Below are positions 27,170-47,616 of a stretch of DNA of 64,000 nt, in pieces. The DNA comes from an uncultured Flavobacteriaceae bacterium (GTDB lineage: Bacteria; Bacteroidota; Bacteroidia; Flavobacteriales; Flavobacteriaceae). A program made the position numbers and the translations under genes. The notes beneath the pieces were generated by a model. The model saw nothing but the letters and a program-made list of their open reading frames with translations, was not told where the DNA came from and did not search any database. The stretch's first letter is position 1; each line of letters starts with the position of its first letter. The stretch spans positions 1 through 64,000 of the forward strand of contig CANKYF010000011.1 in NCBI GenBank assembly GCA_947487895.1. Direction: 5' to 3'.

Positions 27170-27356
27170 TCAGGTTTTGGATTTAAAATATTTGATTTCT
27201 GTGTTGGATGCACCAACTAATACTGTTTTTCTTTTACATATTTTAACAGCTCTATTTGATTTAGGGTATCTATGGTGTCTTTTATCGTGCTTTATATTTA
27301 CTTGGATTAAGCAATCTCCTTGACATCAAGTTGATCAAAACCTTACACAATAAACA

Positions 27357-27389
27357 TATCACCCTTTCATAGTGGCAATATACCCCTTT
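27357..27389 (+). promoter_or_regulatory. Candidate operator for PUL susC: 22-bp-spaced direct repeat
   Basis: TATCACCCTTT (27357-27367) and TATACCCCTTT (27379-27389); TAATTTTG -7 element at 27410-27417. Confidence 0.5.
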
Positions 27390-27447
27390 AAAAAGTTATA
27401 GGCTGTATCTAATTTTGGAGCATGATAACTAAACTCAATATTATTTT

Positions 27448-30336
27448 ATGAAAAAAAAGAACTCAATAATGAAACAAGTTGTATTTACTTGCTTCCTAAT
27501 GGTCATGTCTATGGCTGTGTTTGGTCAAAGTACCATAACAGGTTTAGTGACTTCCAGCAGTGACCAACAACCTTTACTCGGCGTTAACGTAGTCGTAAAA
27601 GGTACGACGACTGGAGCGGTTACTGATTTTGATGGAAATTATTCCATTACCGCTTCACCAGAAGATGTTTTGGTATTCAGTTTCATAGGTTACAAAACAA
27701 TTGAAAAGACTGTAGGAGACCAGAATGTGATTAATGTTGCATTGGATAGTGACTTAGAGCAACTGGCAGATGTTGTTGTAATCGGTTACGGGACCTCGAA
27801 AAAAACAGATCTTACCGGATCTATTGCTAGTATTTCAACCAAAGACTTTGAAAAACAACCTATAACAAGAACGGAAGACGCCTTACAGGCACGTGTTGCA
27901 GGGGTAAGTGTTCTAAGGAACTCCGGTGCTCCTGGGGGCAATATTAAAATACGAGTACGAGGTGCAAACTCTATTACTGGTAATAATGAACCTCTAGTGG
28001 TTATAGACGGTATTATAGGTGGGGATTTAAGCAGTTTAAATGCTAACGACATACAAAATATAGATGTATTGAAAGATGCTTCCGCAACTGCAATTTATGG
28101 TTCTAGGGGTGCAAATGGTGTGGTGCTTGTAACTACAAAGAAAGGTAGGTCAGGTGAACCCCAAGTAAATGTGGAATACTTTATATCTGTTTCTAGTGTT
28201 CCCAATAAAATCGATCTTTTATCACCAGAACAGTTTGTTCAATTAGCAGGTGATCCAGCAACTATTATTAACGGGGGAGCAGATTATCAAGACGAATATT
28301 TTGAAACCGCTATCACTAATAATGTTCAAGTTTCTGCAAGTGGCAAAGAAGGAAATCTAAATTACTATATTTCAGGAAATCTTGTGGACCAAGATGGTAT
28401 TATCTTAAATACGGGGTATGAAAGATATTCTTTGCGTAGTAACTTAAATGCACAATTAAGTGATAAATTGAAAGTAGGTCTTAATTTATTTGGATCAAAA
28501 GAAAACGCACTCAATTTAGTGCGTGGTGGTGCTGGAGCATCATCAGACCGCAGGGGAGGAATTGTCAACGTATTATCGTTTAACCCAGCTGTGAATGTTA
28601 GAGATACTGATGGAAATTATAATTTGCAGTCTTCATTTGGGTCTATTTTGGTGAATCCTATTGCTGTGCAGGAACAAAGGAACGGAGAATCGGTAGAAGA
28701 TCAATTTAACGCCAACTTAAATCTATCCTATGATATAAGCAATAATTTGAATTTCACGTTATTAGGGGGTGCTTCCTTGGCCCATTTTAACGAAGAAAGA
28801 TTTGAAGGTATACCCGCAGGGTCGCAAGTGCGAAACGGAAGGGCCTTTTTTAACTCCGTGAGGGATGCCGATTATCAGTTAAGTAATATATTGTCTTGGA
28901 ACAAAGATTTTGGTAATACAAAATTAAAGCTAACAGGTATATATGAGTTACAGTCTTCAGTTAGGAAATTAGAATCAATAAATTCTCAGGATTTTGCTCT
29001 TGCAGATCTAGAAAATGCCTTTTTTCTACTAGAATTAGGAGAATCCCAAAGTATTGGAGCTAATCAAATTAGCAGTTCAATTGAGTCATATGTGGCAAGA
29101 GCAGAGGTGAATTTTAACAATGATCTGTTAGTAACAGGAACGATCAGGGTAGATGAGTCATCAAGATTTAGAAAAGGTAATAGAACAGGGGTTTTCCCAT
29201 CTATTTCAGCTGCTTACAATCTTGGTCGCTATTTTTCAGACGAATCATTTATTAATAATGTAAAGTTAAGGGCTGGATATGGTGAAACAGGAAATCAGAA
29301 TATCGCTCCATTCTCTACGTTCCAGTCGTTGCGTACAACTTTTGGTTTTGGCTTTGACGGAGCATCAACATCTATAGGTTTGGGTAATAGTGGACTAGTA
29401 GATGAAGATTTGACTTGGGAAACTACAAGGCAGTTTAATGCAGGTGTTGATTTTAGGCTGGCAAATGGTCGTGTTAATTTAGCTGTAGATTGGTTCAAGA
29501 AAAATACAGTTGATTTGTTGTTGAATTTGCCCGTACCTCAGTTTAATGGTGGTGGTGTTATCCGAACCAACGTAGGAGAGGTTGAAAATACCGGGGTTGA
29601 TGTTAGTATTTCTGCTGTTATCGTAAATAACGAAAACTTTAGTTGGAATTCAAATTTGACCATGTCTACTGTTAGCAACGAGGTTATAGACTTAGGAGGG
29701 TTAGACCAAATATTGACTGCTCCTTCAGGAATTAACCCTGGAGGTAATACAGGTAATTTCTACATCATTGAAGAAGGAGAGCCTTTAGGTAACTTTTTTG
29801 GATTTGAATATTTAGGTGCAGATGCTAATGGTGTGGCACAATATTCTGAGGAGCAGAGTGTAATAGGTAATGGTATCCCAAATTTTACATGGGGTTTAAA
29901 TAATACATTGACCTATAAAAATTTCGATTTGAACGTTCTTTTGAGAGGGGTTCATGGTTATGATGTCTTAAACGCTACCAGAGGAATCATATCTTTGGGA
30001 GGGGGAGATGTTACTGTTCCAACAAGTGTGGATATACTAGATCCCAATAACCCTACATCTGGTGACAATAGAATTAGCTCTACCAGATACATTGAAGATG
30101 GTAGCTTTATTAGGTTAAGTAACCTATCTCTAGGGTATAACTTTCCAGACATCAAAGGATTCGATTCTTTGAAAGTTTATATAAGTGGGCAAAATTTGTT
30201 CACTATAACAGACTATACCGGGTTCGATCCAGAGGTGTCATCTTCAAGTAGCTCCTCAGATTCAACTCCTTCTTTAGATTTTGGCGCGTTACCAAATCCA
30301 AGAACATTTACCTTGGGACTTAATATTGGTTTTTAA
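27448..30336 (+). CDS. SusC/RagA-family TonB-linked outer-membrane protein (no STN)
   Basis: Signal peptide, carboxypeptidase-regulatory-like domain, DVVVIGYGTSKKTDLTGSIASIS TonB-box/plug, C-terminal barrel. Confidence 0.95.
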   Translation: MKKKNSIMKQVVFTCFLMVMSMAVFGQSTITGLVTSSSDQQPLLGVNVVVKGTTTGAVTDFDGNYSITASPEDVLVFSFIGYKTIEKTVGDQNVINVALDSDLEQLADVVVIGYGTSKKTDLTGSIASISTKDFEKQPITRTEDALQARVAGVSVLRNSGAPGGNIKIRVRGANSITGNNEPLVVIDGIIGGDLSSLNANDIQNIDVLKDASATAIYGSRGANGVVLVTTKKGRSGEPQVNVEYFISVSSVPNKIDLLSPEQFVQLAGDPATIINGGADYQDEYFETAITNNVQVSASGKEGNLNYYISGNLVDQDGIILNTGYERYSLRSNLNAQLSDKLKVGLNLFGSKENALNLVRGGAGASSDRRGGIVNVLSFNPAVNVRDTDGNYNLQSSFGSILVNPIAVQEQRNGESVEDQFNANLNLSYDISNNLNFTLLGGASLAHFNEERFEGIPAGSQVRNGRAFFNSVRDADYQLSNILSWNKDFGNTKLKLTGIYELQSSVRKLESINSQDFALADLENAFFLLELGESQSIGANQISSSIESYVARAEVNFNNDLLVTGTIRVDESSRFRKGNRTGVFPSISAAYNLGRYFSDESFINNVKLRAGYGETGNQNIAPFSTFQSLRTTFGFGFDGASTSIGLGNSGLVDEDLTWETTRQFNAGVDFRLANGRVNLAVDWFKKNTVDLLLNLPVPQFNGGGVIRTNVGEVENTGVDVSISAVIVNNENFSWNSNLTMSTVSNEVIDLGGLDQILTAPSGINPGGNTGNFYIIEEGEPLGNFFGFEYLGADANGVAQYSEEQSVIGNGIPNFTWGLNNTLTYKNFDLNVLLRGVHGYDVLNATRGIISLGGGDVTVPTSVDILDPNNPTSGDNRISSTRYIEDGSFIRLSNLSLGYNFPDIKGFDSLKVYISGQNLFTITDYTGFDPEVSSSSSSSDSTPSLDFGALPNPRTFTLGLNIGF

Positions 30337-30345
30337 AAAAATAAA

Positions 30346-31896
30346 ATGAAAAATAAAATGAAAAGTAAAATGAGAAATTATCGGTTTAAGATTAAATTCT
30401 GTCTAGTTTTTGTTTCATTAGCTACGGTGTTTTCGTGTGCTGATTTAGAAGAAGATCCGTCTGAGGTCTTGCTTGCTCCAACTGCTTTGAATAGTGAAGC
30501 AGCGTTGTCGGCTTTGAACACGGGTATGTACAACCGCTTAGTCAATGGGTCAACGGGTGTAGCCCGTACATCATTTCATATTGCAGCCTTTGGCGGTGAT
30601 GATATTACCACCCATAGTGGAAGTAATAAAATAGGTTTTAGAGAGTCAGATTGGAGGCGACAAACTCCAAACTCATCATTCAACACAACCTATAGAGCCT
30701 GTTACGGTGTAATAACCATTGCAAATACTGCTATAGATGCAAGGGATAATATTGAAGGAAATCAACAGGCAATAGATAGGCTTATAGGAGAAGCTTTTTT
30801 TATGCGGGCATTTTGCTATTTAACGTTGACAAGGACCTATGGAAGAGTACCTATTCAAATAGAATCCAATTCCAATGCACAATTGTCCAGAGGGTCTTTT
30901 GAAGAAATCTATGCCCAGATTGAATCAGATTTCCAACAAGCTGAACTTTTACTTCCAGATGTGTACCCAAATGTACCGGCAGTAGGTGCTAGACCTAGTA
31001 AAGGAGCTGCATCCGCTATGCTTTCTAGGTTATATATGCATTGGGCGGGATTCCCACTCAATGATACAAGTAGATATGCGATGGCCGCTAGTAAGGCAAA
31101 AGAGGTAATTGATAATGCAGCGCTGTATGGTTATGCTTTATCACCAGATTTTAGATCCATGTTTACCGTTGGGGGTAGATTCGCACATGATGAGGGAGTC
31201 TTTACAATGGTTTTCTGTAATACATGTGATCGTCGTGCACCAAATAGATTAACCGGTCGTCTTGGGCTAACTGCTGAAGCTGGCGGTTGGGAAGAAACTT
31301 TTGGGGAAATCGCTTTCTTTGAAGATTTTGAAAGTGCCGCAACAGAAGATGGGACGCTTCAACGTTTTAACGACACCTATATTCTAGAACAGATACCAAG
31401 GGGTAGTAATCCTATAGGTGCAGAGTGGAGAAACTTTGCAGATCCCCATCCTATTTTTAGAAAGATTGTAGGAGATTTTGATGAGGGTGTTCTAAATACT
31501 ACTACCAGTGATATGAACTACTACTTTATGAGATACGCTGAGGTCTTATTGAATTATGCAGAAGCTTCCGGTAGATCAGGAAACGTAACTGCGGACGCGT
31601 GGGCTGCTTTGAATGCGGTTCGTTCAAGAGCTGGAGCCACCGTTGATTTAACTGCTGCTGATGGTGCTATTGAAGAATTGGCATTTACAGAAAGAAAATG
31701 GGAATTCGCAGGAGAATTCCAGAGATGGTATGATTTAGTTAGAATGGATAGGGTTGTCGAGGCATTTGCCAACAGATCTCCAGATGAAATTGTAGATACG
31801 GCCAATAGTACCACTCCGGCTACGGATGGCGAATTTTTATACTTTAACCCAATTCCACAATCAGAATTGGACGTTGCCCCACAACTTAACAATTAA
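30346..31896 (+). CDS. SusD/RagB-family lipoprotein
   Basis: LATVFSCADLEEDPSEV lipobox; IGEAFFMRAFCYLTLTRTYGRVPI; TERKWEFAGEFQRWYDLVRMDRV; start likely at one of the clustered ATGs. Confidence 0.94.
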   Translation: MKNKMKSKMRNYRFKIKFCLVFVSLATVFSCADLEEDPSEVLLAPTALNSEAALSALNTGMYNRLVNGSTGVARTSFHIAAFGGDDITTHSGSNKIGFRESDWRRQTPNSSFNTTYRACYGVITIANTAIDARDNIEGNQQAIDRLIGEAFFMRAFCYLTLTRTYGRVPIQIESNSNAQLSRGSFEEIYAQIESDFQQAELLLPDVYPNVPAVGARPSKGAASAMLSRLYMHWAGFPLNDTSRYAMAASKAKEVIDNAALYGYALSPDFRSMFTVGGRFAHDEGVFTMVFCNTCDRRAPNRLTGRLGLTAEAGGWEETFGEIAFFEDFESAATEDGTLQRFNDTYILEQIPRGSNPIGAEWRNFADPHPIFRKIVGDFDEGVLNTTTSDMNYYFMRYAEVLLNYAEASGRSGNVTADAWAALNAVRSRAGATVDLTAADGAIEELAFTERKWEFAGEFQRWYDLVRMDRVVEAFANRSPDEIVDTANSTTPATDGEFLYFNPIPQSELDVAPQLNN

Positions 31897-31930
31897 GTTT
31901 AAAACTGTTTTTTTGTTAGATTTAGTTAAT

Positions 31931-31964
31931 TTTGCCCTCTATTCATATGAATAGAGGGCTTTTT
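31931..31964 (+). terminator. Rho-independent terminator after susD
   Basis: Perfect palindrome GCCCTCTATTCATATGAATAGAGGGC (31934-31959) followed by TTTTT. Confidence 0.9.
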
Positions 31965-32263
31965 AGGCAGTAGGCTTATAGTTCTTTTGTCTATAAGGGA
32001 TGCTACGATAGTTGGACAATTTCTAGTTTCACCAATTCTGTGTTTAGTGCCTATTAGTTAATATCAAAAAAGAAAGTTAGTATCGTGGTTTGTGATTGGA
32101 GTTCCCTTTTTTTGAGTATATCCATTGATTTTGTATCAACAGCATATTCTTGAGTATCGGATAACAACAAGTATAGGATAGGTAGCTTTGCGATTACGCG
32201 TGAGGTGCAGGTCTAATAAAGGACAAGAATGACACCCTTTTTTAAAGTGCAGATATAGATATA

Positions 32264-35200
32264 GTGGATAAACAAATAAATTACATAAGGACAATGACAA
32301 CTAGAGTAAATATGATACCGCTTATCTACGCGTTGGTTTTGTTTGGTATAGCTTCTTGTAAAAAGGAGGCTAATACAACCAAAACCACAGAAAAGCTTTT
32401 TGTAGAAATTGAGGCAAGTGTTTCTGGTGTGAATTTTGTAAATCAAATTATAGAAACAGAAGAGTTTAACTACTATAACTATATATATGCATACAATGGT
32501 GGGGGTGTTGCAACTGCTGATTTTAATAATGATGGATTGTTGGACCTATTTTTTACAGCTAATATATCTGGGAGTAAACTGTATGTGAACAAAGGGAATT
32601 TTAAGTTTCAGGATATCACAGCAACATCCAATATAGAAAATAAAGAAGGGTTTCATACAGGGACAGCCATAGTTGACATCAATAATGATGGGTATGCAGA
32701 CATATACGTCTGTAGGGCCGGTTGGTTTAATGACCCTAAAAAACTAAAGAATCTTTTATATATCAACAATAAAGATTTAACATTTACAGAGGCAGCTGCG
32801 GATTATGGACTTGCTGATGAAAACCGTACCATCGCCGCTACTTTTTTTGACTATGATAATGATGGTGATCTAGATGTGTATTTGGCCAATGCACCCATTA
32901 CTACAAAAGATTATAAGACTATTCAAGATCTTAAGGTAGTTGCTGCAGATCCAAAAACACCTACCCTTTTAGGTAGTGACAAACTATATAAAAACAATGG
33001 CGCAAATAATTTCGAAGATGTATCAATAAAGGCAGGCATATTTCCCGATAGGGCGTTTGGACTCAACCCTCAAGTTGGAGATTTAAATAACGATGGCTGG
33101 TTGGATATTTATGTGAGCAATGACTTTAACATGCCAGATTTTGCTTATATGAATAATGGTGATGGCACGTTCAGCGATAAAAGAGAAGAGCTGCTAAAGC
33201 ATATGTCATTTTATAGCATGGGAAGTGATATTGCAGATATAAATAATGATGGCAGTAATGATATGGTGGTATTGGATATGAACCCTGAAGACTACATACG
33301 TTCCAAAACAACCATGTCCATGACGCCGATCAGCAAGTTTTGGGAAATGTTGGATAAAGGATACCATTATCAATATATGCATAATGTATTGCAGTTGAAC
33401 AACAACAATGGCACATTCAGCGAAATGGCAAATATGTCTGGAATTGCCAACACAGACTGGAGTTGGGCGCCCCTGTTGGCAGACTTTGATTTAGACGGGT
33501 ATGTAGATTTGTACGTTACCAATGGTGTGTACAGGGATGTTATAGATAAAGACAGCAATAGGAACATACTGTATCAAATACGTAAAAAAGGCAAAAAACC
33601 CACTTCTATCGAGTATTTAGAGTACACCCAAAAACTGCCCCAGCAAAAATTGAGTAACTATTTTTTCAAGAACAATGGAGACCTTACTTTTTCTAATAAC
33701 TCCACAGAATGGGCAGATATAAAGCCAACGTTTTCCAATGGGGCTGTATATGCAGATTTGGATAATGATGGTGATTTGGATATCATCACCAATAACATAA
33801 ACGATGAGGCCACCTTATTCAAAAACAATGCGATTGAATTAGACAAAGGCAATTATGTACATTTTCAATTTACGGGTACCAAAAAAAACAGAAATGGAAT
33901 TGGGACAAAAGTCACATTGTATTTTGAAGATGGCAGCTTGCAGACCAGGCAGCTCATTACCTCAAGGGGGTACTTGTCATCAGGATCCAATAAGGTGCAT
34001 TTTGGCTTTTCTAAAAAAGCACGTATCCGCAAAGCCATGATACAATGGACAGATGGTAAGGTGCAACAGTTGGATATAGTACCAAACCAATTGCACCATA
34101 TAAAATATGAAGATGCCACAGCAGTAAACAATAAAACACAAGCAATTGCAAAACTATTTAAGGAAGCTGAATTCAATTTTAAGCATATTGATAGTGTTTT
34201 TAATGACTTTCAAATACAGTTGCTTTTACCGCAAAAATTATCGCAACTGGGACCAGCGGTTGCCACTACGGATGTCAATAATGATGGGATTGATGACCTA
34301 TACTTGGGGGGTGGGTATAGTCAGTCAGGACAATTGCTGTTAGGAACCCCTAACGGTACATTTATCAATAAAGAGGTAGTCGATTTTGTTTCAGATAGCA
34401 AACATGAAGATATTGGAGCCGCTTTTTTTGATGCAGATAGTGATGGTGATCAAGACCTATACGTAGTAAGCGGTAGTTATGAATTTGGGGAGAAGAATCA
34501 GCTTTTGGAAGATAGATTGTACATAAATGACGGGAATGGTCATTTTGTTCGAGATTATGGAGCATTGCCCTTTTTCAATGAATCAGGTTCAGTAGTTGTG
34601 CCGGCAGATTATGATGCAGATGGTGACATGGATCTTTTTGTGGGAGGTAGGCAAGTTCCTGGTAAATATCCAAGCCCTCCCGTGAGTTATATTTTAGAAA
34701 ACAGAAAAGGAAAGTTTTCCATTGTAACAAAGCAAATAGCTCCAGATTTAGAACGTATTGGTATGGTTACGGATGCCAAATGGGAAGATATTGATATCGA
34801 TGGTGATTTGGACTTGATAGTTACAGGAGAATGGATGGGTATTGAGGTTTTTACAAATAAGGAAGGAGTTTTGCTTAAAGAAGAAAAGTATGGAAACTTG
34901 TCAAATACCGTTGGCTGGTGGAATAAAATACACGTAGAAGATGTTGATGGCGATGGGGACAAGGATATCATTGCTGGCAATTTTGGCTTGAACAGCAAAC
35001 ATCGTGCAACAAAGAAAAAACCATTTCATGTGTACGCAAAAGACTTTGATGACAATGGTACAGTTGATATATTCTTGGCCAAATACTATAAAGACAAGCA
35101 GGTGCCCGTTAGAGGCAAAAGTTGCACAACACAACAAATGCCTTACATAAAGGAAAAGATAAAAACCTATCAAGAATTTGCAGGTAGCGATATACAAGGC

Positions 35201-35614
35201 ATACTAGGTGTGAATATTGATAAAGCTTTGCATTTAGAGGCCACGGAGTTCAGATCCGGAGTATTTCTAAATGATGGGGGCAACAATTTTGAATTTGACC
35301 CTTTTCCCAATACGTGCCAAACAGCCCCTATAAATAGTATCCTTTTTGATGACTATGATGATGATGGTTTTAAAGACATGCTATTGGCGGGTAACAATCA
35401 TCAACTAGAAATAGAAACAACCAGAAACGACGCCGGAATCGGCGCGTTTTTAAAGGGTAACGTTAATGGAGAGTTTACTTATATAGTAAATAACAATACG
35501 GGCTTTTTCGCGGATAAAGATGTTAGAAACATGATAGCAATTACCACCTTAAAAGGGGAAGGCGTACTAGTAATCAATAACAATGGTAAACACCAACTAT
35601 TTTTAACCAAGTAA
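32264..35614 (+). CDS. FG-GAP/VCBS-repeat lipoprotein with ASPIC/UnbV (CRTAC1-like) domain
   Basis: Many DxNxDGxxD repeats; NRNGIGTKVTLYFEDGSLQTRQLITSRGYLSSGSNKVHFGFSK UnbV domain; lipobox GIASC; start may be 32294 or 32312. Confidence 0.9.
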   Translation: MDKQINYIRTMTTRVNMIPLIYALVLFGIASCKKEANTTKTTEKLFVEIEASVSGVNFVNQIIETEEFNYYNYIYAYNGGGVATADFNNDGLLDLFFTANISGSKLYVNKGNFKFQDITATSNIENKEGFHTGTAIVDINNDGYADIYVCRAGWFNDPKKLKNLLYINNKDLTFTEAAADYGLADENRTIAATFFDYDNDGDLDVYLANAPITTKDYKTIQDLKVVAADPKTPTLLGSDKLYKNNGANNFEDVSIKAGIFPDRAFGLNPQVGDLNNDGWLDIYVSNDFNMPDFAYMNNGDGTFSDKREELLKHMSFYSMGSDIADINNDGSNDMVVLDMNPEDYIRSKTTMSMTPISKFWEMLDKGYHYQYMHNVLQLNNNNGTFSEMANMSGIANTDWSWAPLLADFDLDGYVDLYVTNGVYRDVIDKDSNRNILYQIRKKGKKPTSIEYLEYTQKLPQQKLSNYFFKNNGDLTFSNNSTEWADIKPTFSNGAVYADLDNDGDLDIITNNINDEATLFKNNAIELDKGNYVHFQFTGTKKNRNGIGTKVTLYFEDGSLQTRQLITSRGYLSSGSNKVHFGFSKKARIRKAMIQWTDGKVQQLDIVPNQLHHIKYEDATAVNNKTQAIAKLFKEAEFNFKHIDSVFNDFQIQLLLPQKLSQLGPAVATTDVNNDGIDDLYLGGGYSQSGQLLLGTPNGTFINKEVVDFVSDSKHEDIGAAFFDADSDGDQDLYVVSGSYEFGEKNQLLEDRLYINDGNGHFVRDYGALPFFNESGSVVVPADYDADGDMDLFVGGRQVPGKYPSPPVSYILENRKGKFSIVTKQIAPDLERIGMVTDAKWEDIDIDGDLDLIVTGEWMGIEVFTNKEGVLLKEEKYGNLSNTVGWWNKIHVEDVDGDGDKDIIAGNFGLNSKHRATKKKPFHVYAKDFDDNGTVDIFLAKYYKDKQVPVRGKSCTTQQMPYIKEKIKTYQEFAGSDIQGILGVNIDKALHLEATEFRSGVFLNDGGNNFEFDPFPNTCQTAPINSILFDDYDDDGFKDMLLAGNNHQLEIETTRNDAGIGAFLKGNVNGEFTYIVNNNTGFFADKDVRNMIAITTLKGEGVLVINNNGKHQLFLTK

Positions 35615-35627
35615 AAAATTAAAAAGA

Positions 35628-37562
35628 ATGAATAATAAAAAGATTTTTTTGATTGCGATAATGTTGCTAAGCTCAATTTGTGAGAGTAATGTATTTGCGC
35701 AGAATAATAGGAATATTTTACAAAAAAAAGCCTTGGAGATTAAGCTGTTGGATAAAGTTGGTTCTGCACAACATTTTAAGCCTTTTCCAAAATATGCAGA
35801 CAGTGTAAAGTGGCAGGGGCTAGATCAAGAATTAAAAGACAGGATAATTAAAAAAGGGGAAATAGCATTATTAGCCACATGGAAAACATTATTAGCCAGT
35901 GAATATAGGTTGTTTCTTGAAACTGGGAATAGAAAGACATTTGAAGATAAATACTTTAGTAGAAGATCAAAACTTAGTGATTTGGTCCTTGCCGAAATGA
36001 TTGAACACAAAGGGCGCTTTTTAAACAAGATAATAGACGGTATTTACTTGATCTGTGAAGAAAGTAATTGGGTGGTTCCTGCGCACGGCAGTCATAAATT
36101 AAGAAATGGGAAAGAGGATCATTATGTAGATTTATTTGCTGCAGAAACATCTTCCTTATTGGCGTGGACCTATTATTTGTTAGGTGATGAACTAAATAAG
36201 ATTACACCGCAAATAACTGAACGTCTTAAGACGGAATGTAAAAAGAGAATCATTTTACCAAACTTAGAGAATGATGATTTTTGGTGGAAAGGATATAATT
36301 TACGTCACTATGTTCTGAATAACTGGAATCCGTGGATAGTATCCAATTGGCTTTCTACTGTTTTGATTTTAGAAGATGATACGCAAATTAGGAAAAGATC
36401 GCTAGAAAAAATTCTGGCATGCCTTGATAACTATCTAAACATCCAATCCAATGATGGAAGTTGTGAAGAAGGGCCAATATACTGGACCGTAGCTGGTGGA
36501 AGGGTATTGCAAACCCTAAGTCTGTTACAACAAGCTACTAATGGTACTTTTGATGTTTACAAAGAGCCATTAATCAAAAAGATATCAGACTTTTTTGCAA
36601 AAACTCATATCGCTAAAAACCACTTTGTAAATGTTGGGGACGGACCATACGTAATGAATGATAGAGCGGTACGGGTGTTCAATTATGGTTACGCTCAGAG
36701 TAATGAAGGGTTAATGAATACTGCAAAAGCGGTGGCTCAATATTATGATCCTTTAAAAGAGGTTACAAGAAATCAGTTTGGAGACCTGTACATAAATTTG
36801 TCAAGCATATTCAATTATGACTTTTTTAAAAAGTACCCCATGAAACCAATTGCAAAAGAAGAAGTTTGGTTTCCAGATTTAGAATTGCTCTGTACTACAA
36901 TAAAAAACAAGGATAAGGATTTATTCTTATCTGTATTGGGAGCAAATAATGCCCAAAGTCATAATCACAATGATGTGGGTAACTATTTGATTTTTGTAGA
37001 TGGGGAACCAGCAATTATAGATGTTGGGGTTGAGACCTATACAGAAAAAACCTTTAGTTCAAGGAGATATGAGATTTGGACAATGCAGAGTGATTTTCAT
37101 AACCTACCGCTTATTAACGGCGTATCACAAAAATTTGGCTTGGAATATAGAGCTGCCAATGTGGTTAAGACTAAAAATAAACTCAGTATGGATATAAGCG
37201 CAGCCTATCCAGAAGATGCAAAAGTAAATTCTTGGGTACGTACGTTTGAGTACGATAGGGGGGGAATTGTAATTTCTGATGATTACAGTTTAAAGAAAAA
37301 TTTCAATGGTGTTGTATTAAATCAGATGACACCATTGGAAGTAGTTGAAAACGAAAAAGGAAATCTTGTATTATTGAATAAGATGGGGAAAGTAGTGCTA
37401 CATGTCTACTATAACCCTGAACAACTTTCCTTCTCCAAGGAAGAAATTATACTTACGGATCCTAAATTGAGAAAAGAATGGAAACAAGATAAGTTATATA
37501 GGTTTCAGTTAAGGGTTAGCAATAAAAAACTGCAAGAACGTATTCATGTCAAATATCAATAA
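35628..37562 (+). CDS. Heparinase II/III-like polysaccharide lyase family protein
   Basis: Signal peptide; alpha/alpha toroid followed by LGANNAQSHNHNDVGNYLIFVDGEPAIIDVGVETYT heparinase-II/III-like motif. Confidence 0.82.
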   Translation: MNNKKIFLIAIMLLSSICESNVFAQNNRNILQKKALEIKLLDKVGSAQHFKPFPKYADSVKWQGLDQELKDRIIKKGEIALLATWKTLLASEYRLFLETGNRKTFEDKYFSRRSKLSDLVLAEMIEHKGRFLNKIIDGIYLICEESNWVVPAHGSHKLRNGKEDHYVDLFAAETSSLLAWTYYLLGDELNKITPQITERLKTECKKRIILPNLENDDFWWKGYNLRHYVLNNWNPWIVSNWLSTVLILEDDTQIRKRSLEKILACLDNYLNIQSNDGSCEEGPIYWTVAGGRVLQTLSLLQQATNGTFDVYKEPLIKKISDFFAKTHIAKNHFVNVGDGPYVMNDRAVRVFNYGYAQSNEGLMNTAKAVAQYYDPLKEVTRNQFGDLYINLSSIFNYDFFKKYPMKPIAKEEVWFPDLELLCTTIKNKDKDLFLSVLGANNAQSHNHNDVGNYLIFVDGEPAIIDVGVETYTEKTFSSRRYEIWTMQSDFHNLPLINGVSQKFGLEYRAANVVKTKNKLSMDISAAYPEDAKVNSWVRTFEYDRGGIVISDDYSLKKNFNGVVLNQMTPLEVVENEKGNLVLLNKMGKVVLHVYYNPEQLSFSKEEIILTDPKLRKEWKQDKLYRFQLRVSNKKLQERIHVKYQ

Positions 37563-37932
37563 TTTTCCAGTTCGGAAAGTATATATGGGCATTTTATTTT
37601 TTGCGCTCTTATACCAAAATTGATAAGAATGTTAAGAAAAAAAATGACCTATTTTTTTATGTGATGATGGTCAATTTTTTGGATTGTAAAAAACTGGGCG
37701 AGTCATAGACCGCCCTATTTTTTTGCTATTAGCCATCATGAGCCAGAGATTATGACTGTGATTCGTCCCAAATTTAACTGTCTTCCTACCCAAAACCTCA
37801 GGAAGAAAAGCACGCGGGCAGAACCGTTCATATCTGATATGTAAGACGAATCGTGTATTGAACGCTAAAATAAATTTGAGACGCAACTCGCAATCCCCGT
37901 CCTATTATAATCTATATTTTTACTTAGGAAAC

Positions 37933-37980
37933 AGGTCCGAAAAAATGTTGATTTCACCCATTTTCCGGACCTTATTTTTT
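37933..37980 (+). terminator. Intrinsic terminator downstream of the lyase region
   Basis: AGGTCCGAAAAAATG...CATTTTCCGGACCT stem followed by TTATTTTTT. Confidence 0.7.
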
Positions 37981-38119
37981 ACCATCGGGATATTATCATA
38001 TTTGTTGCACTTGTTGTTTATGTAATATATTATTTAATATTTATACAGGATAGTTCTTATAAAAATTTAACAAGATAGTAGGATATCATTGGTTTTTAGG
38101 GGGGCATTTGTTTAAAAAA

Positions 38120-38155
38120 CGATTACCCCTGTCTAAAAAAAACATTACCCCCTCA
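38120..38155 (+). promoter_or_regulatory. Candidate operator: 22-bp-spaced ATTACCCC direct repeat
   Basis: ATTACCCC at 38122-38129 and 38144-38151, each preceded by an A-run; TAATATTG -7-like element at 38176-38183. Confidence 0.5.
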
Positions 38156-38345
38156 AACAGGAGTCGTTATTAATTTAATATTGTTAATAGGAATAAATGC
38201 ATATTTCGAAATTAAACCAGCCAAAAAAAAATTATTGTGTGTTTAATGTTAAATGAAATAAGAATTTGGAAAAACCAAACCCTAGCCTACATTAAATAGC
38301 ATTAAAATCTTTTAAGTTGAATGTTTACTAAAATTAAATTATGTT

Positions 38346-41300
38346 ATGAGAAGAAAACTATTTTTTATGGTGATCCTGTCCTTTCTAGGGGCTTATAGTG
38401 TTATAAGTCAAACCTTCCTTCAGGATGCAGGCGCGGGAATCACCCAACCGCTGGTAGATGATTTGGATTATATTGCTCCATTATCTATGGATTTTGATGA
38501 TCGCAATAGGCCATACATGATAAACAATGTGCTGTATCCAGGAATGTCCGCCAATGAATTGTATCGGGTACGAACGCTTAGGAACGGGGTATGGGAATTC
38601 TTTTCATACAGGACCGCAATAGAAGCGGAATTGAACCCCGGAGAGAGCTTGGATTTTAATATTACCGATTCAGATCGTCTAAGATTTGTAAGGGATGGAG
38701 AAATGACGATGGATGGGTATAACAATTTATATGCAATCATTACGGTCAAAGTTGCCAATGGTTCCTCTTCAAGCCGGGAGTTTATGATATTATATGCCAG
38801 TGGCATAGGTGAGGATAATTTTAATGGCAGCTTCAAAGTACACCGTTTGCCTCCAGGAACTACGCAGGCAGAATTAGAGGTTAGGACAAGTTTCAATGAT
38901 TTTACTAACCATCCCCCAGTAATAATGTATATTAGTGACAGGGTCAACAACATATATCCTAGTGGTCCTAGTTGGTTATTTGATATTTGGGGTAATATGA
39001 ATATTATAGCCGTAGACTGGACTGCAAACAGGGAAGATTTGGACTTAAGTTCGGTAATTCAAGTAAGTGATAGGTCGGGCTTCCTAAACAACCATTCGGG
39101 TGGTGGAAGTTATGCTGTAACAAAGGGAGATACCACTTTCTTCACCTGGTTGAGGCATCCTGTAGATCCAGAAGTAGATGATGACGGTGAAAGTGTGATT
39201 TTTGTAAATTCACTGAATAGGAATGCAAAAACAATAGGATCCAACTTTGCATTGCATGTACACCCAGAAGGTAGAGCCAATTCCCATCATCAACCTGCAA
39301 TCGCTATTGATGAATCAAATTTTATTCATGTCTTAACTGGGTCTCATACACGTAACGGGTTTTTATACAGTAAAACCTTGAATCCTTTAGATATTAGCTC
39401 TTGGACCCCAGAGGTAGAGGTGGGAACAGATAGAACATACGCAGCATTACTAATTGATAATTTGGGCGTTATGTACGCACCTTATAGAGGTGATAGACCA
39501 TACCGACAGTATATGCAGACTGGAGATGTGGTCAATGGGTTAAGCGGTGAAGGAGAATTGTTCATAGATAATCCGCCTTGTGATGATATTTATCGTGCGT
39601 TTTACAATAAACTGTATAAGGATAAACCATCAGGAGGCAACGATCGGGTTTATATGAGTTGGAGTACAAATTGTAATGCTTCTGAGACCCGTACGGATTT
39701 TTATAGGGCTATGGCATTTACAGATGATCAAGGCGGTTCATGGAGAATTCCAACCCGATATGATTTATCGAGCAGGAATAATGAAGGAAAATCGGTACAG
39801 CGAATCACTTTTGACCCTGTATTACCGTCTTCTAATGCTTTTGATATTAATGCTGTTAGCGACGTATCCTTACCAGTAACCTATGAAATAATCAGTGGAA
39901 ATAATATTGCTACTATTTCTGGGAATACTATTACACCTATAGGTGCAGGACAAATTGTGGTAAGTGCAAGTAATAATGGAAACAACACCTACTATGGTGA
40001 CTTTGTAACTACGGTCATTAACATAGGCGGAGGCAGTGGTTCAGAAAACACCCTTACTCCTGTGGCAGATGCCTTTGTAAGGAATGGTTCTTCTGCCAAT
40101 AGTAATTTTGGGAGTGACAGTAGATTGATAGTTAAGAATAACGGTTCCAATTTCACCCGTGAGAGCTACCTTCGTTTCGATTTATCGGGTATCCAAGGTT
40201 CTATCAACAGTGCCCGTTTGGAGTTGGTTCCAGAGAGTTCCACTTCGCCCGGTTCTACGGACATCCAGTTGAGGTACGTTTCCAATGACAGTTGGAGCGA
40301 AAGCGGTATTACATGGAACAACAAGCCTGGAGCGTCTACGGTTCTTGATACAGAGACGGGCAGTAGTTCCGTCATGGTCTTTGACATAACGGATCAGGTA
40401 CGAACCGAACTATCGGGCGATGGCCAGATATCGTTACGTTTGCAATCCACGAATTCAGGAGATTTTTCCATTGTATATAGTAGTAGAGAAGCAGCGTCTA
40501 ACCTGCGTCCAAGATTGGTGATCAGTGTGCAGCCTGTATTAGAAAATACCCTTACTCCTGTGGCAGATGCCTTTGTAAGGAATGGTTCTTCTGCCAATAG
40601 TAATTTTGGTAGTGACAGTAGATTGATAGTTAAGAACAACGGTTCCAATTTCACCCGTGAGAGCTACCTTCGTTTCGATTTATCGGGTATCCAAGGTTCT
40701 ATCAACAGTGCCCGTTTGGAGTTGGTTCCAGAGAGTTCCACTTCGCCTGGTTCTACGGACATCCAGTTGAGGTACGTTTCCAATGACAGTTGGAGCGAAA
40801 GCGGCATTACATGGAACAACAAGCCTGGAGCGTCTACGGTTCTCGATACAGAGACAGGCAGTAGCTCCGTAATGGTCTTTGACATAACGGATCAGGTGCG
40901 AACCGAACTATCGGGCGATGGGCAGATATCGTTACGTTTGCAATCCACGAATTCAGGGAATTTTTCCATCGTATATAGTAGTAGGGAAGCAGCGTCTAAC
41001 CTGCGTCCAAGATTGGTGATCAGTGTGCAGCCTGTGTCAGAAAACACCCTTACCCCTGAGGCCGATGCTTTTGTACGGGACGGTAGTTTTTCCAGCGATA
41101 ATTTTGGTAGTGACAGCCGATTGATAGTCAAGAACGATGCGCTTGGGTTTAAGCGTGAGAGTTATCTACGATTTGATTTGTCCTCCGTTCAAGGTACGAT
41201 AACCAGTGCCAGGTTGGAGATGACGGTAGAAAATTCTGGCTCTCCCGGTTCCACGGATATGAGATTAAGGTTTGTTTCCGATGATAGTTGGAGCGAATCC

Positions 41301-42335
41301 GGTATAACGTGGCTCAATAAGCCTGGAGCTACCACTGACCTGGACACACAACAGGGCAATGGTTCTGCAATGAGTTTTGATGTAACGCAACAGGCAGAGA
41401 CCGAGCGTTTGGGCGACGGCAAACTTTCTCTAAGGTTTCAATCTACCAATGAGGGCAACTTTTCAGTAAGCTACAATAGCAAAGAGGCTTCAATGGCAGG
41501 TTTAAGACCAAGGCTGGTTATAACAGTTGTGTCGCCATCAGGAAGTGCCTTGGTACCTGAGGCCGATGCTTTTGTACGGGACGGTAGTTTTTCCAGCGAT
41601 AATTTTGGTAGTGACAGCCGATTGATAGTCAAGAACGATGCGCTTGGGTTTAAACGTGAGAGCTATCTACGATTTGATTTGTCCTCCGTTCAAGGTACGA
41701 TAACCAGTGCGAGTTTGGAGATGACGGTAGAAAATTCTGGTTCTCCGAGTTCCACGGATATGAGATTAAGGTTTGTTTCTGATGATAGTTGGAGCGAATC
41801 CGGTATAACGTGGCTCAACAAGCCTGGAGCTACCACTGACCTGGACACACAACAGGGGAATGGTTCTACAATGAGTTTTGATGTAACGCAACAGGCAGAG
41901 GCAGAGCGTTTGGGCGACGGCAAACTTTCTCTAAGATTTCAATCTACCAATGAGGGTAATTTTTCAGTAAGCTACAATAGTAGAGAGGTTTCAACGGCAA
42001 GTTTAAGACCAAGGCTAATTATTCAAACGTCTTCTGCAACAACTTTAGCTTTTAGACAGGAAAGCTTAGGGGAGAAAGAGGTTTTAAAAGAGCAACCACT
42101 CTCTCAAGAGTTTTCACTTTACCCAAATCCAGTTGTAGATATAATGAACGTTACATCTGATCAAGTAATACAAAGAGTTATGGTAATAGGTTTGTCAGGT
42201 CAAAAGGTAATGGAATTGAACAACCTAAATGCCAAATCCATGCAGGTTGATACTAGAACATTGCCAAGTGGTATCTATGTTTTAAAATTGATAGATGAAA
42301 CAGGTGCTGAACGTAACCGAAAATTTATAAAATAG
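38346..42335 (+). CDS. Secreted BNR_4-type beta-propeller protein (candidate polysaccharide lyase) with four tandem DNRLRE/CBM96-like domains and T9SS C-terminal sorting domain
   Basis: Signal peptide; propeller motifs (ANSHHQPAIAIDESNFIHVLTGSHTRN); four repeats of DAFVRxGS...FGSDSRLIVKN...RESYLRFDLS; C-terminal LYPNPVVDIMNV...LPSGIYVLKLI. Confidence 0.8.
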   Translation: MRRKLFFMVILSFLGAYSVISQTFLQDAGAGITQPLVDDLDYIAPLSMDFDDRNRPYMINNVLYPGMSANELYRVRTLRNGVWEFFSYRTAIEAELNPGESLDFNITDSDRLRFVRDGEMTMDGYNNLYAIITVKVANGSSSSREFMILYASGIGEDNFNGSFKVHRLPPGTTQAELEVRTSFNDFTNHPPVIMYISDRVNNIYPSGPSWLFDIWGNMNIIAVDWTANREDLDLSSVIQVSDRSGFLNNHSGGGSYAVTKGDTTFFTWLRHPVDPEVDDDGESVIFVNSLNRNAKTIGSNFALHVHPEGRANSHHQPAIAIDESNFIHVLTGSHTRNGFLYSKTLNPLDISSWTPEVEVGTDRTYAALLIDNLGVMYAPYRGDRPYRQYMQTGDVVNGLSGEGELFIDNPPCDDIYRAFYNKLYKDKPSGGNDRVYMSWSTNCNASETRTDFYRAMAFTDDQGGSWRIPTRYDLSSRNNEGKSVQRITFDPVLPSSNAFDINAVSDVSLPVTYEIISGNNIATISGNTITPIGAGQIVVSASNNGNNTYYGDFVTTVINIGGGSGSENTLTPVADAFVRNGSSANSNFGSDSRLIVKNNGSNFTRESYLRFDLSGIQGSINSARLELVPESSTSPGSTDIQLRYVSNDSWSESGITWNNKPGASTVLDTETGSSSVMVFDITDQVRTELSGDGQISLRLQSTNSGDFSIVYSSREAASNLRPRLVISVQPVLENTLTPVADAFVRNGSSANSNFGSDSRLIVKNNGSNFTRESYLRFDLSGIQGSINSARLELVPESSTSPGSTDIQLRYVSNDSWSESGITWNNKPGASTVLDTETGSSSVMVFDITDQVRTELSGDGQISLRLQSTNSGNFSIVYSSREAASNLRPRLVISVQPVSENTLTPEADAFVRDGSFSSDNFGSDSRLIVKNDALGFKRESYLRFDLSSVQGTITSARLEMTVENSGSPGSTDMRLRFVSDDSWSESGITWLNKPGATTDLDTQQGNGSAMSFDVTQQAETERLGDGKLSLRFQSTNEGNFSVSYNSKEASMAGLRPRLVITVVSPSGSALVPEADAFVRDGSFSSDNFGSDSRLIVKNDALGFKRESYLRFDLSSVQGTITSASLEMTVENSGSPSSTDMRLRFVSDDSWSESGITWLNKPGATTDLDTQQGNGSTMSFDVTQQAEAERLGDGKLSLRFQSTNEGNFSVSYNSREVSTASLRPRLIIQTSSATTLAFRQESLGEKEVLKEQPLSQEFSLYPNPVVDIMNVTSDQVIQRVMVIGLSGQKVMELNNLNAKSMQVDTRTLPSGIYVLKLIDETGAERNRKFIK
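40044..42030 (+). repeat. Four tandem about 500-bp repeats encoding DNRLRE domains, organised A-A'-B-B'
   Basis: Repeat starts at 40044, 40542 and 41040 (498-bp period), then a 501-bp period to the fourth; A/A' and B/B' near identical at DNA level. Confidence 0.92.
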
Positions 42336-42480: not shown

Positions 42481-43197
42481 TATAATAATTTGATGAACGC
42501 TATGAAAACAGCAGATCGCAAAGAGCAATTTTTAGTGAATTGTTCTTAATAGCATCAAGATTTGTAAGAAGCTGAGGCCTTTGCAAAATTCAAAGTATGT
42601 GGGAAGTTTGACGCCCGAAAAAAACAACTCGCAGTAACCTATTGGTTATGAATGCTTAAAGTTTTTGAGAAGGAAGAGGTTTTCCATAATTTGGATAAAG
42701 AAACACTTTTTATACCTTTATGTAAAGGTCTTAAGCGATCAAAACTGCTCCGGAATATAGAATTTAGCAAAGTCAACAAAGACAATGACCCTAAATACTT
42801 TTCTCGGATATTTATCTATCAATGTAAAATCTAAAACATAACGATCAGTATAATTCGCTGCCCATCTTTAGCACAGGATTTTTAAATTTAACTTTACCAT
42901 CAAATACGTAGAGAATGTATGGTCTTTGTAAAGTATTGTTGGGTACCATGCTGCAAAAAGAATTGTTCTGTTGAACGATAGACTATTGTATTATGTCTAA
43001 ATAACCCCTTTGAGAAGTAATTTTTCTTATTAAGTTTAGACTTAATGAGAAATTCATTTAATGTTGAATGTCTTTCTTTAGAAGGAGCATATTGAAACGG
43101 CTTATGTCTTGAAAACAGGTCATTGATAAAAGTTAAGTAACATTTTAAGAATAGGTCCATTTAAATGTTTTACAAACAGCTAAATTAATAGGAATAC

Positions 43198-46100
43198 ATG
43201 AAATTTGATTACAAAATAATTTTGATCATTGCTTTCAACTGTTTTAATGCGTTGGGACAAGAGATTGTCCCCAATCTTAATGATCTAAGTTTTAAGCATA
43301 TATTTTCTAGTGATGGGTTGTCCCAAAGATCTATCAAAGATATATTACAGGATAGTAAAGGGTATTTATGGTTTGGGACTAGAGATGGTCTAAATAAATA
43401 TGATGGAGACAAAATCACGATTTATCGGCACAATTCAGAAGATACAGGAAGCCTTACCCATAGTAGAATTCAATGTTTGTTTGAAGATACAAAAAGCAAT
43501 ATTTGGATTGGAACAAACGAAGGGTTGAATAAATACAATCCCAAAGAAGATAATTTTATCAAATACCAAAGCAACGATAACTTAAAAGAATTGTCAAATA
43601 AAAAAATATGGAGTATTACCCAGTTAAATGATAGTGTTCTTGGCATAGCAACAAACAAAGGTTTGAACTTTGTTGAATTAACCAGCGCCAATAATGACAT
43701 ATCAAGATTTGGTATGGAACATTTGAAAAAGGCGTTCGCAAATAGGAAGGTAAGGAATTTGCTAACTGCAAAAAATGGGGATTTATGGATTTGCACCGTT
43801 GAAGGTATTAGTATCTACAATCCGCAAACAAATAAAATGATAAACATTGAGTACCTTGAGAATTCCATAAAGGAAACATTTCTAAATAACCCACCTGTCT
43901 TATTTGAAGATAAGGAAAGTAATATTTGGTTGGGATACGATAAGGGGTTGGCGATTTTTGACAAAGATCTACGGGTATTCAGTAATTACACGTTCAATAA
44001 AAATACACTTATAAACACAGCAGTACGCTCTATCTGCGAAGATTCGTATGGCAATCTTTGGGTAGGAACTTATGATGGTTTATTTATTTTAAATATGATA
44101 ACCCAAAAGAAGTTTCATGTAAAACACAATAAAAATAATCCAAAAAGCCTAAGTCAGAACTCAATTTATAAAATTATTAAAGACTCCAAAGGAGATATGT
44201 GGATAGGCACTTGGGCGGGCGGCGTTAATTATTTTGACAGGAGTTACGCTATTTTTGACAATATAATATCCGGTGATGGTGAGAATATGCTTAATTACAA
44301 TATTGTTAGTGGAATAGTTGAAGACCGATATGAAAATCTGTGGATAGGAACTGAAGGAGGAGGTATAAATTACTACGACAAGGAAAAAAAGAAGTTTACC
44401 TACTATTTGTATGATCCAAATGATGAAAAAAGTGTATCCTCCAACAACATAAAGTCAATACTAAAGGATAAAAAAGGAAATTTATGGATTGGGACTCATG
44501 ATAATGGATTAAACTTTTTAGATACGAGCAAAACTACCATACAGTTTGAGAGAATCAATTCCCGTAATCAAAACTCAAAATTGCTTTCGGATTATAAAAT
44601 TCTATCCTTGTTTGAAGATGTAAATGAAAATATTTGGATAGGAACGTTGGCCAGAGGTTTACTGTTATATGATACCAAATTAAAAATACTGCGAAAGATA
44701 GGTGATACCAATGAATCTATTCAATGCATTATTGCAGCAAGCAATCAAAACCAGATTATTGTTGGGGGATCTAACGGATTGAAAAAAGTAGATATCAATT
44801 CGCTAGAGGAAGAGAAACTAGAATGGTTAAGCACAAGTAATACCGATTACTTAACGGTTAACTGTATTTTTAGGGATACTGAAAACAATTATTGGATCGG
44901 TACCGAGGGCAGTGGACTTATTCACTATAGATCAAACACAAAAAAACTAACCAAATATGGCGCTATTCAAGGATTGCCCAACGAGATTGTCTATGGAGTT
45001 TTGCAAGATGATAATGGGTATCTCTGGATCAGTACAAACCAAGGGATTAGTAGATTTAATATAGCAACAAAAAAATTTAAGAATTTCACTAAATCAGATG
45101 GGCTACAAAGTAACGAGTTTAACTACCAAGCTTATATCAAGACGTCTAATAGAGAATTGATTTTTGGTGGTGTTGATGGGATTACAATTTTTAATCCGGA
45201 TAAAATAGGTAAAAATAAATTTATTCCTAATGTTGATATTTATGATATCAAAGTGAACAATGAAATTTTTTATGGAACTCATGATAGTATTTCTCCGGTT
45301 ACTTTACAACATGATGAAAATAATTTCACGATTGGTTTTACAGCCCTAAGCTTTTCCCAACCTAGTAAAAATAAATATGCTTACAAATTGGAAGGTTTTG
45401 ATAAGCATTGGACTCATGTTGGAAACAAGAAAACCGCAACCTATACAAATATAAAAGATGGGGATTATGTATTTAAAGTAAAGGCCTCTAATAGTGATGG
45501 GCTATGGAACGAAATGGGTGATTCACTAAGGATAAAAATACATGCTCCCTTATGGGGTACGTGGTGGGCGTATTTAACGTATGGTTTAATCTGCACAGGG
45601 TTGGCATTTTATATGAGATCATTGATTCTGGCAAGGGTTTATGTGAAAAAACAGCTGGAAGAGGAAAGAATTGAAAAAGAAAAGATTGAAGGAATCAATA
45701 AGCTAAAACTTAAATTTTTTACTAATATTTCCCATGAGTTCAGGACACCCCTGACCCTCATTTTAGGTCCACTTCAAAAACTTGCCAGCAATACACGTCA
45801 TGATGAAGAAACGAAAACACAACTACAATTAATTCAAAGAAACGCCAATACACTTTTAGAATTAATCAACCAACTCCTTAATTTTAGAAAAAGTGAAGCA
45901 GGAGAATTAAAATTACAAGTTTCCCAAAACAACATCATAAGCTTTATTGAAGAAATCAAACTCTCTTTTGATGAATTGGCAAAAAGTAGGGACATAAAAT
46001 TTGGTTTTAAGCATAATATGGAAAGAATTGATGTTTGGTTTGATGCTATGGAACTCAAGAAGGTTATAATCAATATCTTATCAAACGCATTTAAATTTAC

Positions 46101-47286
46101 CCCTGATGATGGAGAAATCACTATAAAGGTAGACATGCCAAAACACAGTCCCGATGCTATTGAAATAGCTATTAATGATAGTGGAATAGGTATACCAAAG
46201 GAAAAAATTAAATATATCTTTGACCGTTATTTTCAATTAGGTGTCTCAAAGGGAAAAAGAGCTGGGACCGGTCTAGGTCTTTCTTTATCAAGAGACATTA
46301 TAGAATTGCACAATGGTAACGTAAAGGTAGAAAGTGAAAAAGGTTCAGGGGTAAAATTTATAATCGTATTGCCCTTAGGAAAAGGACATTTAGACCCTGA
46401 AAAGGTAAATATACAACAAGAAGTAGTTCGTAAAGATTCCAAAACCCCAGAAGTAATCTCTTTTCCAGAGATTCCTGATGCAGTGCAAGAGGACGTTCCC
46501 GAAGAGGTTGATAAGTCAAAGTCTACCATATTAATAGTAGAGGACAATAGTCAATTGAGTGGATTTATTAAATCTATTTTTGAAGATCGTTTTAATATAT
46601 ATCAGGCGTACAACGGAAGAGAAGGAATGAATTTTGCGAAAACCAAAAATATTGACCTTATAATTAGCGACATTATGATGCCGTTAATGAACGGTGTCGA
46701 TATGTGTCATAATATAAAATCCAATATAAGAACAAGTCATATTCCAGTTATATTACTTACCGCAAAAACTTCATTGGGCACGCAAAGGGAAAGTTATAAG
46801 ATTGGAGCAGATGCCTATATTACAAAACCATTTGATACGACCATATTAATAAACCAGATAAACAATATCCTTAATCTCAGAAACAATATGATCGAGAAGT
46901 TTAAAAAGGATACCATTTTAACTCCAAAAGAATTGACCTATGTGTCAATGGATGAAAAATTTCTGGAAAAAGCTTTCGAGATTGTTGAGGAATACATGGG
47001 GGATGACAGTTTTAATGCACAGAAATTCACAAATAAAATGGGAGTAAGTAGAACCCTGTTGTACAATAAACTAAAGTTATTGACAGGGCAGTCTTTGACA
47101 GAGTTCATTCGTTTGATTCGATTAAAAAAGGCAGCACAACTTATAGCCAATACAGAGATGAATATTTCTGAAATAGCTTATGAAGTCGGCTTTAATGATT
47201 TAAAATATTTTAGAAAAAACTTTAAAATCGTCTTTAATTCTACCCCTACAGCATATCGAAAGGAAAATAAAGTATTAAATGACTAG
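43198..47286 (+). CDS. Hybrid two-component system regulator (periplasmic beta-propeller, Y_Y_Y, histidine kinase, receiver, AraC HTH)
   Basis: Reg_prop repeats (GYLWFGTRDGLNKYDG), HisKA FFTNISHEFRTPLTLILGPL, HATPase GTGLGLSLSRDI, receiver IIMMPLMNGVDMCHNIK-type DIMMP, AraC C-terminus. Confidence 0.97.
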   Translation: MKFDYKIILIIAFNCFNALGQEIVPNLNDLSFKHIFSSDGLSQRSIKDILQDSKGYLWFGTRDGLNKYDGDKITIYRHNSEDTGSLTHSRIQCLFEDTKSNIWIGTNEGLNKYNPKEDNFIKYQSNDNLKELSNKKIWSITQLNDSVLGIATNKGLNFVELTSANNDISRFGMEHLKKAFANRKVRNLLTAKNGDLWICTVEGISIYNPQTNKMINIEYLENSIKETFLNNPPVLFEDKESNIWLGYDKGLAIFDKDLRVFSNYTFNKNTLINTAVRSICEDSYGNLWVGTYDGLFILNMITQKKFHVKHNKNNPKSLSQNSIYKIIKDSKGDMWIGTWAGGVNYFDRSYAIFDNIISGDGENMLNYNIVSGIVEDRYENLWIGTEGGGINYYDKEKKKFTYYLYDPNDEKSVSSNNIKSILKDKKGNLWIGTHDNGLNFLDTSKTTIQFERINSRNQNSKLLSDYKILSLFEDVNENIWIGTLARGLLLYDTKLKILRKIGDTNESIQCIIAASNQNQIIVGGSNGLKKVDINSLEEEKLEWLSTSNTDYLTVNCIFRDTENNYWIGTEGSGLIHYRSNTKKLTKYGAIQGLPNEIVYGVLQDDNGYLWISTNQGISRFNIATKKFKNFTKSDGLQSNEFNYQAYIKTSNRELIFGGVDGITIFNPDKIGKNKFIPNVDIYDIKVNNEIFYGTHDSISPVTLQHDENNFTIGFTALSFSQPSKNKYAYKLEGFDKHWTHVGNKKTATYTNIKDGDYVFKVKASNSDGLWNEMGDSLRIKIHAPLWGTWWAYLTYGLICTGLAFYMRSLILARVYVKKQLEEERIEKEKIEGINKLKLKFFTNISHEFRTPLTLILGPLQKLASNTRHDEETKTQLQLIQRNANTLLELINQLLNFRKSEAGELKLQVSQNNIISFIEEIKLSFDELAKSRDIKFGFKHNMERIDVWFDAMELKKVIINILSNAFKFTPDDGEITIKVDMPKHSPDAIEIAINDSGIGIPKEKIKYIFDRYFQLGVSKGKRAGTGLGLSLSRDIIELHNGNVKVESEKGSGVKFIIVLPLGKGHLDPEKVNIQQEVVRKDSKTPEVISFPEIPDAVQEDVPEEVDKSKSTILIVEDNSQLSGFIKSIFEDRFNIYQAYNGREGMNFAKTKNIDLIISDIMMPLMNGVDMCHNIKSNIRTSHIPVILLTAKTSLGTQRESYKIGADAYITKPFDTTILINQINNILNLRNNMIEKFKKDTILTPKELTYVSMDEKFLEKAFEIVEEYMGDDSFNAQKFTNKMGVSRTLLYNKLKLLTGQSLTEFIRLIRLKKAAQLIANTEMNISEIAYEVGFNDLKYFRKNFKIVFNSTPTAYRKENKVLND

Positions 47287-47616
47287 TTTGCTGGATCTAT
47301 CGTAGCCTTTCCGTGCTTATGTCGTCGGTAGTGTAAACTATGTCCTGTAGATAGTCCAAGAAACAGGACAGTAATTTAATCATTAAATTTTACTGAATAT
47401 GACATGAAGAAAGCCCGCCAGAACGAACGGGCAGGTTCACGGCAAAGTTTAAGACCAAGGTGGTATTGTAAACCTTGAAGGAGCGCTATAGTTTGGCGGA
47501 ACTTACCCATATTCGTACAATCCTAATTAAAAAAAACATTTAACCACTAAAAAATAACTATTTGAACCCATTTAAGGCTTGGGAAAACCAATATTTTTGA
47601 ACGTAAGAAATCACTT

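Follow-up and report, generated by a model that had tools for sequence, protein, structure and literature searches.

Paired direct repeats that track one HTCS clade in Flavobacteriaceae are predicted operators of a polysaccharide gene cluster

HTCS operators have so far been predicted mainly for gut Bacteroides. In B. thetaiotaomicron, operators in the form of direct repeats, with a mean period of 21 bp, were predicted for 16 HTCSs (Ravcheev et al., 2013; PMC3878776). The Bacteroides operators consist of two conserved sites around a non-conserved spacer and lie 5′ of susC and of other operons of the HTCS-encoding cluster, and some of the regulons also take in unlinked genes (PMC3878776). Response-regulator fragments of two HTCSs, BT4124 and BT4663, bind the bt4114 and bt4662 promoters in EMSA (PMC11253607), and flavobacterial sigma-A promoters carry TAnnTTTG at −12 to −5 (PMC9723704). 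A literature search found no description of HTCS operators in Flavobacteriaceae. The locus analyzed here lies in a stretch of 64,000 nucleotides (the window) from an uncultured Flavobacteriaceae bacterium. Its predicted sites share with the Bacteroides operators the direct-repeat form, a similar period and the placement in an HTCS-encoding cluster, whereas they belong to a Flavobacteriaceae clade, are built of GAAC...CCCC(C)Y half-sites with a period of 21–24 bp, and follow one motif clade-wide. Likeness to the 16 Bacteroides motifs was judged by form and not by sequence logos, and overlap in sequence with one of them is possible. This kind of switch is known from Bacteroides, and the Flavobacteriaceae example is new. 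The window HTCS also resembles BT4124 and BT4663 in its domain order, its S/CHIP motif and its predicted sites 5′ of susC homologs; binding was observed by EMSA for those two, whereas we infer it from sequence for the window HTCS.

The window HTCS combines a periplasmic propeller sensor, HisKA, HATPase, REC and an AraC-type HTH in one chain, and is intact in that SHEFRTP and SDIMMP, with the phospho-accepting His and Asp, and the S/CHIP motif SHIP are all present. Besides the genes in Table 1, the cluster contains an SDR, a sugar transporter and a galactarate/altronate dehydratase-like protein. This gene content points to a polysaccharide with uronic acid as the probable substrate. The GH88 ORF has a GTG start at 47617, just 18 bp past the end of the −7-like box, and the in-frame ATG at 47635 is the likelier start. 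The ORF at 26201–27079, directly 5′ of susC, joins a fragment of two-component-regulator propeller repeats to a short-chain-dehydrogenase-like C-terminal part, and may be what remains of an earlier HTCS sensor gene.

Table 1. Genes of the cluster and predicted regulatory elements in the window (feature, positions, strand, remarks)
susC operator, distal half-site TAAACATATCACCCTTTC	27351..27368	+	paired score 20.7, second in window
susC operator, proximal half-site GTGGCAATATACCCCTTT	27372..27389	+	matrix; R1 match 27353-27417, 20.0 bits
susC promoter −7 box TAATTTTG	27410..27417	+	27 bp past first C of proximal tract
SusC-like TonB-dependent transporter	27448..30336	+	predicted target
SusD-like lipoprotein	30346..31896	+	
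FG-GAP/UnbV_ASPIC protein	32264..35614	+	3′ of susCD
Heparinase II/III-like lyase	35628..37562	+	
BNR/CBM96 operator, distal half-site AAAACGATTACCCCTGTC	38116..38133	+	paired score 24.9, first in window
BNR/CBM96 operator, proximal half-site AAAACATTACCCCCTCAA	38138..38155	+	
BNR/CBM96 −7-like box TAATATTG	38176..38183	+	28 bp past first C of proximal tract
BNR_4 propeller, four CBM96 modules, type IX secretion tail	38346..42335	+	predicted target
Candidate autoregulatory site before HTCS gene	42992..43038	+	CCCC 43005-43008; −7 box TAAGTTTA 43031-43038
HTCS: Reg_prop sensor, Y_Y_Y, HisKA (SHEFRTP), HATPase, REC (SDIMMP, SHIP motif), AraC-type HTH_18	43198..47286	+	
Candidate GH88 operator AACATTTAACCACT / AACTATTTGAACCCATTT	47535..47599	+	period 23; −7 box TATTTTTG 47592-47599
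GH88 unsaturated uronyl hydrolase	47635..48867	+	predicted target; ATG start re-assigned
Separate AraC-family protein	50241-51137	-	only other AraC protein seen near cluster

The repeat before susC is formed by TATCACCCTTT (27357–27367) and TATACCCCTTT (27379–27389), separated by 11 nucleotides, and that before the BNR/CBM96 gene by two exact 8-mers, ATTACCCC, at 38122–38129 and 38144–38151, 22 bp apart. In both predicted operators the two half-sites are similar and point the same way, with a period of 21–22 bp. The preliminary description, in which the positions of these repeats and of both −7 boxes were all correct, had ascribed an identical 22-bp period to the two sites; this holds at the BNR/CBM96 gene and for the susC copies taken as 11-mers, whereas by the ACCC core the susC copies are 21 bp apart, because the second reads ATACCCC and not ATNACCC. 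For the same reason the pattern proposed there for a genome scan, ATNACCCY-N14-ATNACCCY, missed its own susC site, and in the 4.39-Mb genome it matched only at 38122. The paired repeats are real; their core is better written as GAAC-N5–7-CCCC(C)Y with a period of 21–24 bp than as ATNACCCY with an exact N14. Another pattern, CCCC-N16–20-CCCC, proved too loose for the own genome (44 matches, mostly unrelated) and was dropped.

In a trait shared with flavobacterial sigma-A promoters, a TAnnTTTR box follows the operator at a constant distance in the susC, HTCS and GH88 candidates, while the BNR/CBM96 gene has TAATATTG. This octamer is one base off the TAnnTTTG consensus, which TAATTTTG fits, and it is also found 26 bp past the proximal C tract 5′ of a related susC (L048:17420). 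The window sites deviate from the consensus (CACCCT, CCCCT). Related SusC genes retain the operator at three other loci (L048, L049 and L070), and no operator was visible upstream of the related SusC in L054. Conservation of the susC site in an Aquimarina genome was rejected as proof; it is uninformative, since identity reaches 89% even at third codon positions.

A family-wide search yielded related HTCSs with 44–50% identity from about 20 Flavobacteriaceae genomes, whose flanks were fetched; the closest relative, from the Aquimarina, is 94% identical. Among about 300 genomes sampled from the phylum, no relative beyond the family exceeded 40% identity. GH88, SDR and SusC genes usually lie in these flanks. 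In 271 upstream regions, taken from the clade loci and the window but not from the near-duplicate Aquimarina, the spacing of paired C tracts peaks sharply and strand-specifically at 20–25 bp, mostly at 21–24 bp (CCCC pairs spaced by 22 bp number 27 on the forward strand vs 3 on the reverse), and 39 regions contain such a pair, mostly before GH88, SusC and other proteins. A smaller second peak stands at 31–33 bp, about one helical turn beyond the main period. Expectation-maximisation returned an 18-bp half-site with a CCCC core. GAAC precedes the C tract by 9–11 bp in 23 of 98 half-sites, vs about 0.3 expected per offset, and TAnnTTT follows the first C of the proximal tract by 26–28 bp in 22 of 49 sites, its positions being scattered in regions that lack the motif. 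The predicted operator would accordingly read as two half-sites of GAAC-N5–7-CCCC(C)Y, 21–24 bp apart, with TAnnTTTR 26–28 bp past the first C of the proximal tract; if the −7 box is placed at −12 to −5, the proximal C tract comes to lie at about −39 to −35.

The motif was discovered and trained on the clade loci, whose scores therefore depend on it; the independent tests are the window, its own genome, the distal sites and the negative sets. A matrix trained without the window placed 38116 (24.9) and 27351 (20.7) first and second over both strands of the window, where shuffles from a dinucleotide chain gave 0.33 matches per strand at scores above 20 and no match above 22. An antisense match at 31207 (score 18.4) lies within susD and was taken as chance. 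The R1 model, a sequence-only model that includes the −7 element, was built from 32 sites, none of them from this genome or the Aquimarina. By this model, whose E-values are rough, the susC site is the best match in the 4.39-Mb genome (20.0 bits, E 0.003), and the BNR/CBM96 site only the 16th (12.6 bits, E 0.64); the fifth and sixth matches (C13:137152 and C2:292239) fall inside genes and were taken as false positives. All of the top four R1 matches in the window are on the + strand and 5′ of susC, the BNR/CBM96 gene, the HTCS gene and GH88; same-strand upstream sequence makes up only 4.2% of the window's search space. No strong R1 match was present in the 367-bp gap before the FG-GAP/UnbV_ASPIC gene in the window scan.

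Scores above 15 were reached by 52 of the 271 upstream regions at clade loci, and by 0 of 113 and 0 of 99 regions beside HTCSs of two other Flavobacteriaceae clades, taken partly from the same genomes. At other HTCS clades, an exact-repeat test for a period of 21–22 bp showed no more than a weak 21-bp peak, in a single group. In 20 genomes without the clade, five of which have other HTCSs, R1 found no match of at least 18 bits (best 17.6), whereas 17 genomes with the clade gave 50 such matches, at least one per genome. Many of these had served for training, but 11 distal ones had not, and all 11 are intergenic. The distal matches mostly precede secreted lyase-like, sulfatase-like or glycosidase-like proteins or SusC genes, as judged by N-terminal sequence and tblastn and not by family search. 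It is a well-supported prediction that across the marine family Flavobacteriaceae this paired element is a control site, present only where this HTCS clade is.

The two further candidates in the window are each weak when taken alone. The one before the HTCS gene has a good proximal half, and its distal half (GAACG at 42973–42977) lacks a C tract; it is the third-best R1 match in the window (10.5 bits, with a paired matrix score of 9.0) and is conserved in the Aquimarina. Its −7 box, TAAGTTTA, is one base off TAnnTTTG yet fits TAnnTTTR. The GH88 candidate is the fourth-best R1 match in the window (10.1 bits), and its −7 box TATTTTTG fits TAnnTTTG. This site is identical in the Aquimarina, where the alignment breaks off further upstream, and only here is conservation with that genome informative. 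GH88 promoters at many other clade loci bear strong operator sites. The preliminary description had named two target units; susC and the BNR/CBM96 gene stand as such, but the HTCS and GH88 promoters are probably targets as well, which would make four.

Since the element occurs only where this HTCS clade is present, the sites are almost certainly landing sites of this type of regulator. The two contact blocks of a half-site, GAAC and, roughly one turn of the helix further on, CCCC(C)Y, would match the two recognition helices of one AraC-type domain, and with half-sites in the same orientation 21–24 bp apart both output domains of an HTCS dimer could lie on one face of the DNA. Placed at about −39 to −35 relative to the start site implied by the −7 box, the proximal C tract would bring the bound protein over or against the −33 region, where it would recruit RNA polymerase. 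An oligosaccharide of a uronic-acid polysaccharide would bind the sensor and thereby cause autophosphorylation of the HTCS and release of its HTH, and the active HTCS would turn on susCD along with its downstream genes, the BNR/CBM96 gene and GH88, and probably the HTCS gene itself. The clade has a second recognition region of its own, GFNDLKYFRKCFK, other clades in the compared set having, for example, GFKNPKYFSKCFQ or GFNTASYFSKCFK; the first recognition helix reads YNKLK in the window HTCS vs YRKLK in most of the clade. The preliminary description had taken the sites as operators bound by the AraC-type domain of this HTCS, a proposal supported by their clade specificity, the fixed −7 spacing and the Bacteroides-like direct repeat. 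Overall, the repeats very likely serve as operators for the HTCS of the same cluster, or in part for its paralog elsewhere in the genome, bound by a head-to-tail dimer that activates the cluster.

Single 8-mers are short, and weak matches, some of them inside genes, are many in the genome; that the repeats nevertheless reflect chance similarity in a genome rich in A+T, or some C-rich feature common to promoters in Flavobacteriaceae, is hardly credible, given a strand-specific period peak and the lack of the element both at other HTCS clades of the family and, at 18 bits or more, in clade-free genomes. Another regulator might own the sites, and the AraC-family protein of Table 1 is encoded within the window, about 12 kb from the BNR/CBM96 site. 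The element, however, tracks the HTCS clade, also at loci without this AraC gene; no homolog was found at other clade loci, where the tblastn matches were confined to short HTH stretches at the HTCS positions, all under 53 bits. Without a counterpart there, the gene was rejected as the regulator, and ownership by another regulator is highly improbable. The HTCS could also act as a repressor here. A site adjoining the −33 region could block polymerase, and in Bacteroides the HTCS BT2391, which deviates from the S/CHIP-DK consensus, represses its cluster (PMC11253607). The window HTCS, by contrast, has the SHIP motif, which accompanies phosphorylation-dependent binding. A direct repeat just 5′ of −33 is, moreover, the usual position for AraC-type activators, and repression is accordingly regarded as quite unlikely.

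The assignment of the sites to the local HTCS is not unique, because the genome holds a second HTCS of the clade, at 97476–101651 of contig C13 (L126) and 47% identical overall. This paralog might bind the sites mainly or jointly, the two clusters then forming one cross-regulated regulon. Its second recognition region is almost identical (NDLKYFRRCFK vs NDLKYFRKNFK), the GH88 and SusC promoters of its cluster are the second- and third-best matches of the same R1 model genome-wide, and the fetched flanks of two unlinked candidates, on C17 and C10, contained no HTCS. On the other hand, each of the two HTCSs sits in its own cluster, and divergent specificity would fit the YNKLK helix, as opposed to YRKLK, together with the off-consensus window sites. 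Main or joint control by the C13 HTCS is judged somewhat unlikely, and the local HTCS remains the preferred regulator.

Predicted operators are seen before GH88, SusC and a divergent GH2 beta-galactosidase-like gene of the C13 HTCS. The unlinked candidates are at C17:15821, before a secreted DUF4955/pectate-lyase-like protein (L127:4754–7792), and at C10:154754, before a secreted PL14 lyase with ricin-type lectin repeats (L128:4071–5720). Counterparts with sites occur in other genomes, where the N-terminus of the L130 protein resembles the PL14 protein and those in L132 and L135 resemble the C17 protein. We tentatively suggest, as a possible though doubtful extension, that one Flavobacteriaceae-wide HTCS clade uses a single operator code, and that several HTCSs per cell, which differ in their sensors but hardly in their recognition helices, share a regulon that includes unlinked uronate-polysaccharide lyases.

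A motif tied to a protein clade would make regulons of Flavobacteriaceae polysaccharide degraders predictable from sequence, unlinked lyases included, and it offers a testable pairing of recognition-helix residues with DNA half-sites. If the regulon is indeed shared, sensing of one glycan would prime the cell to attack related glycans.
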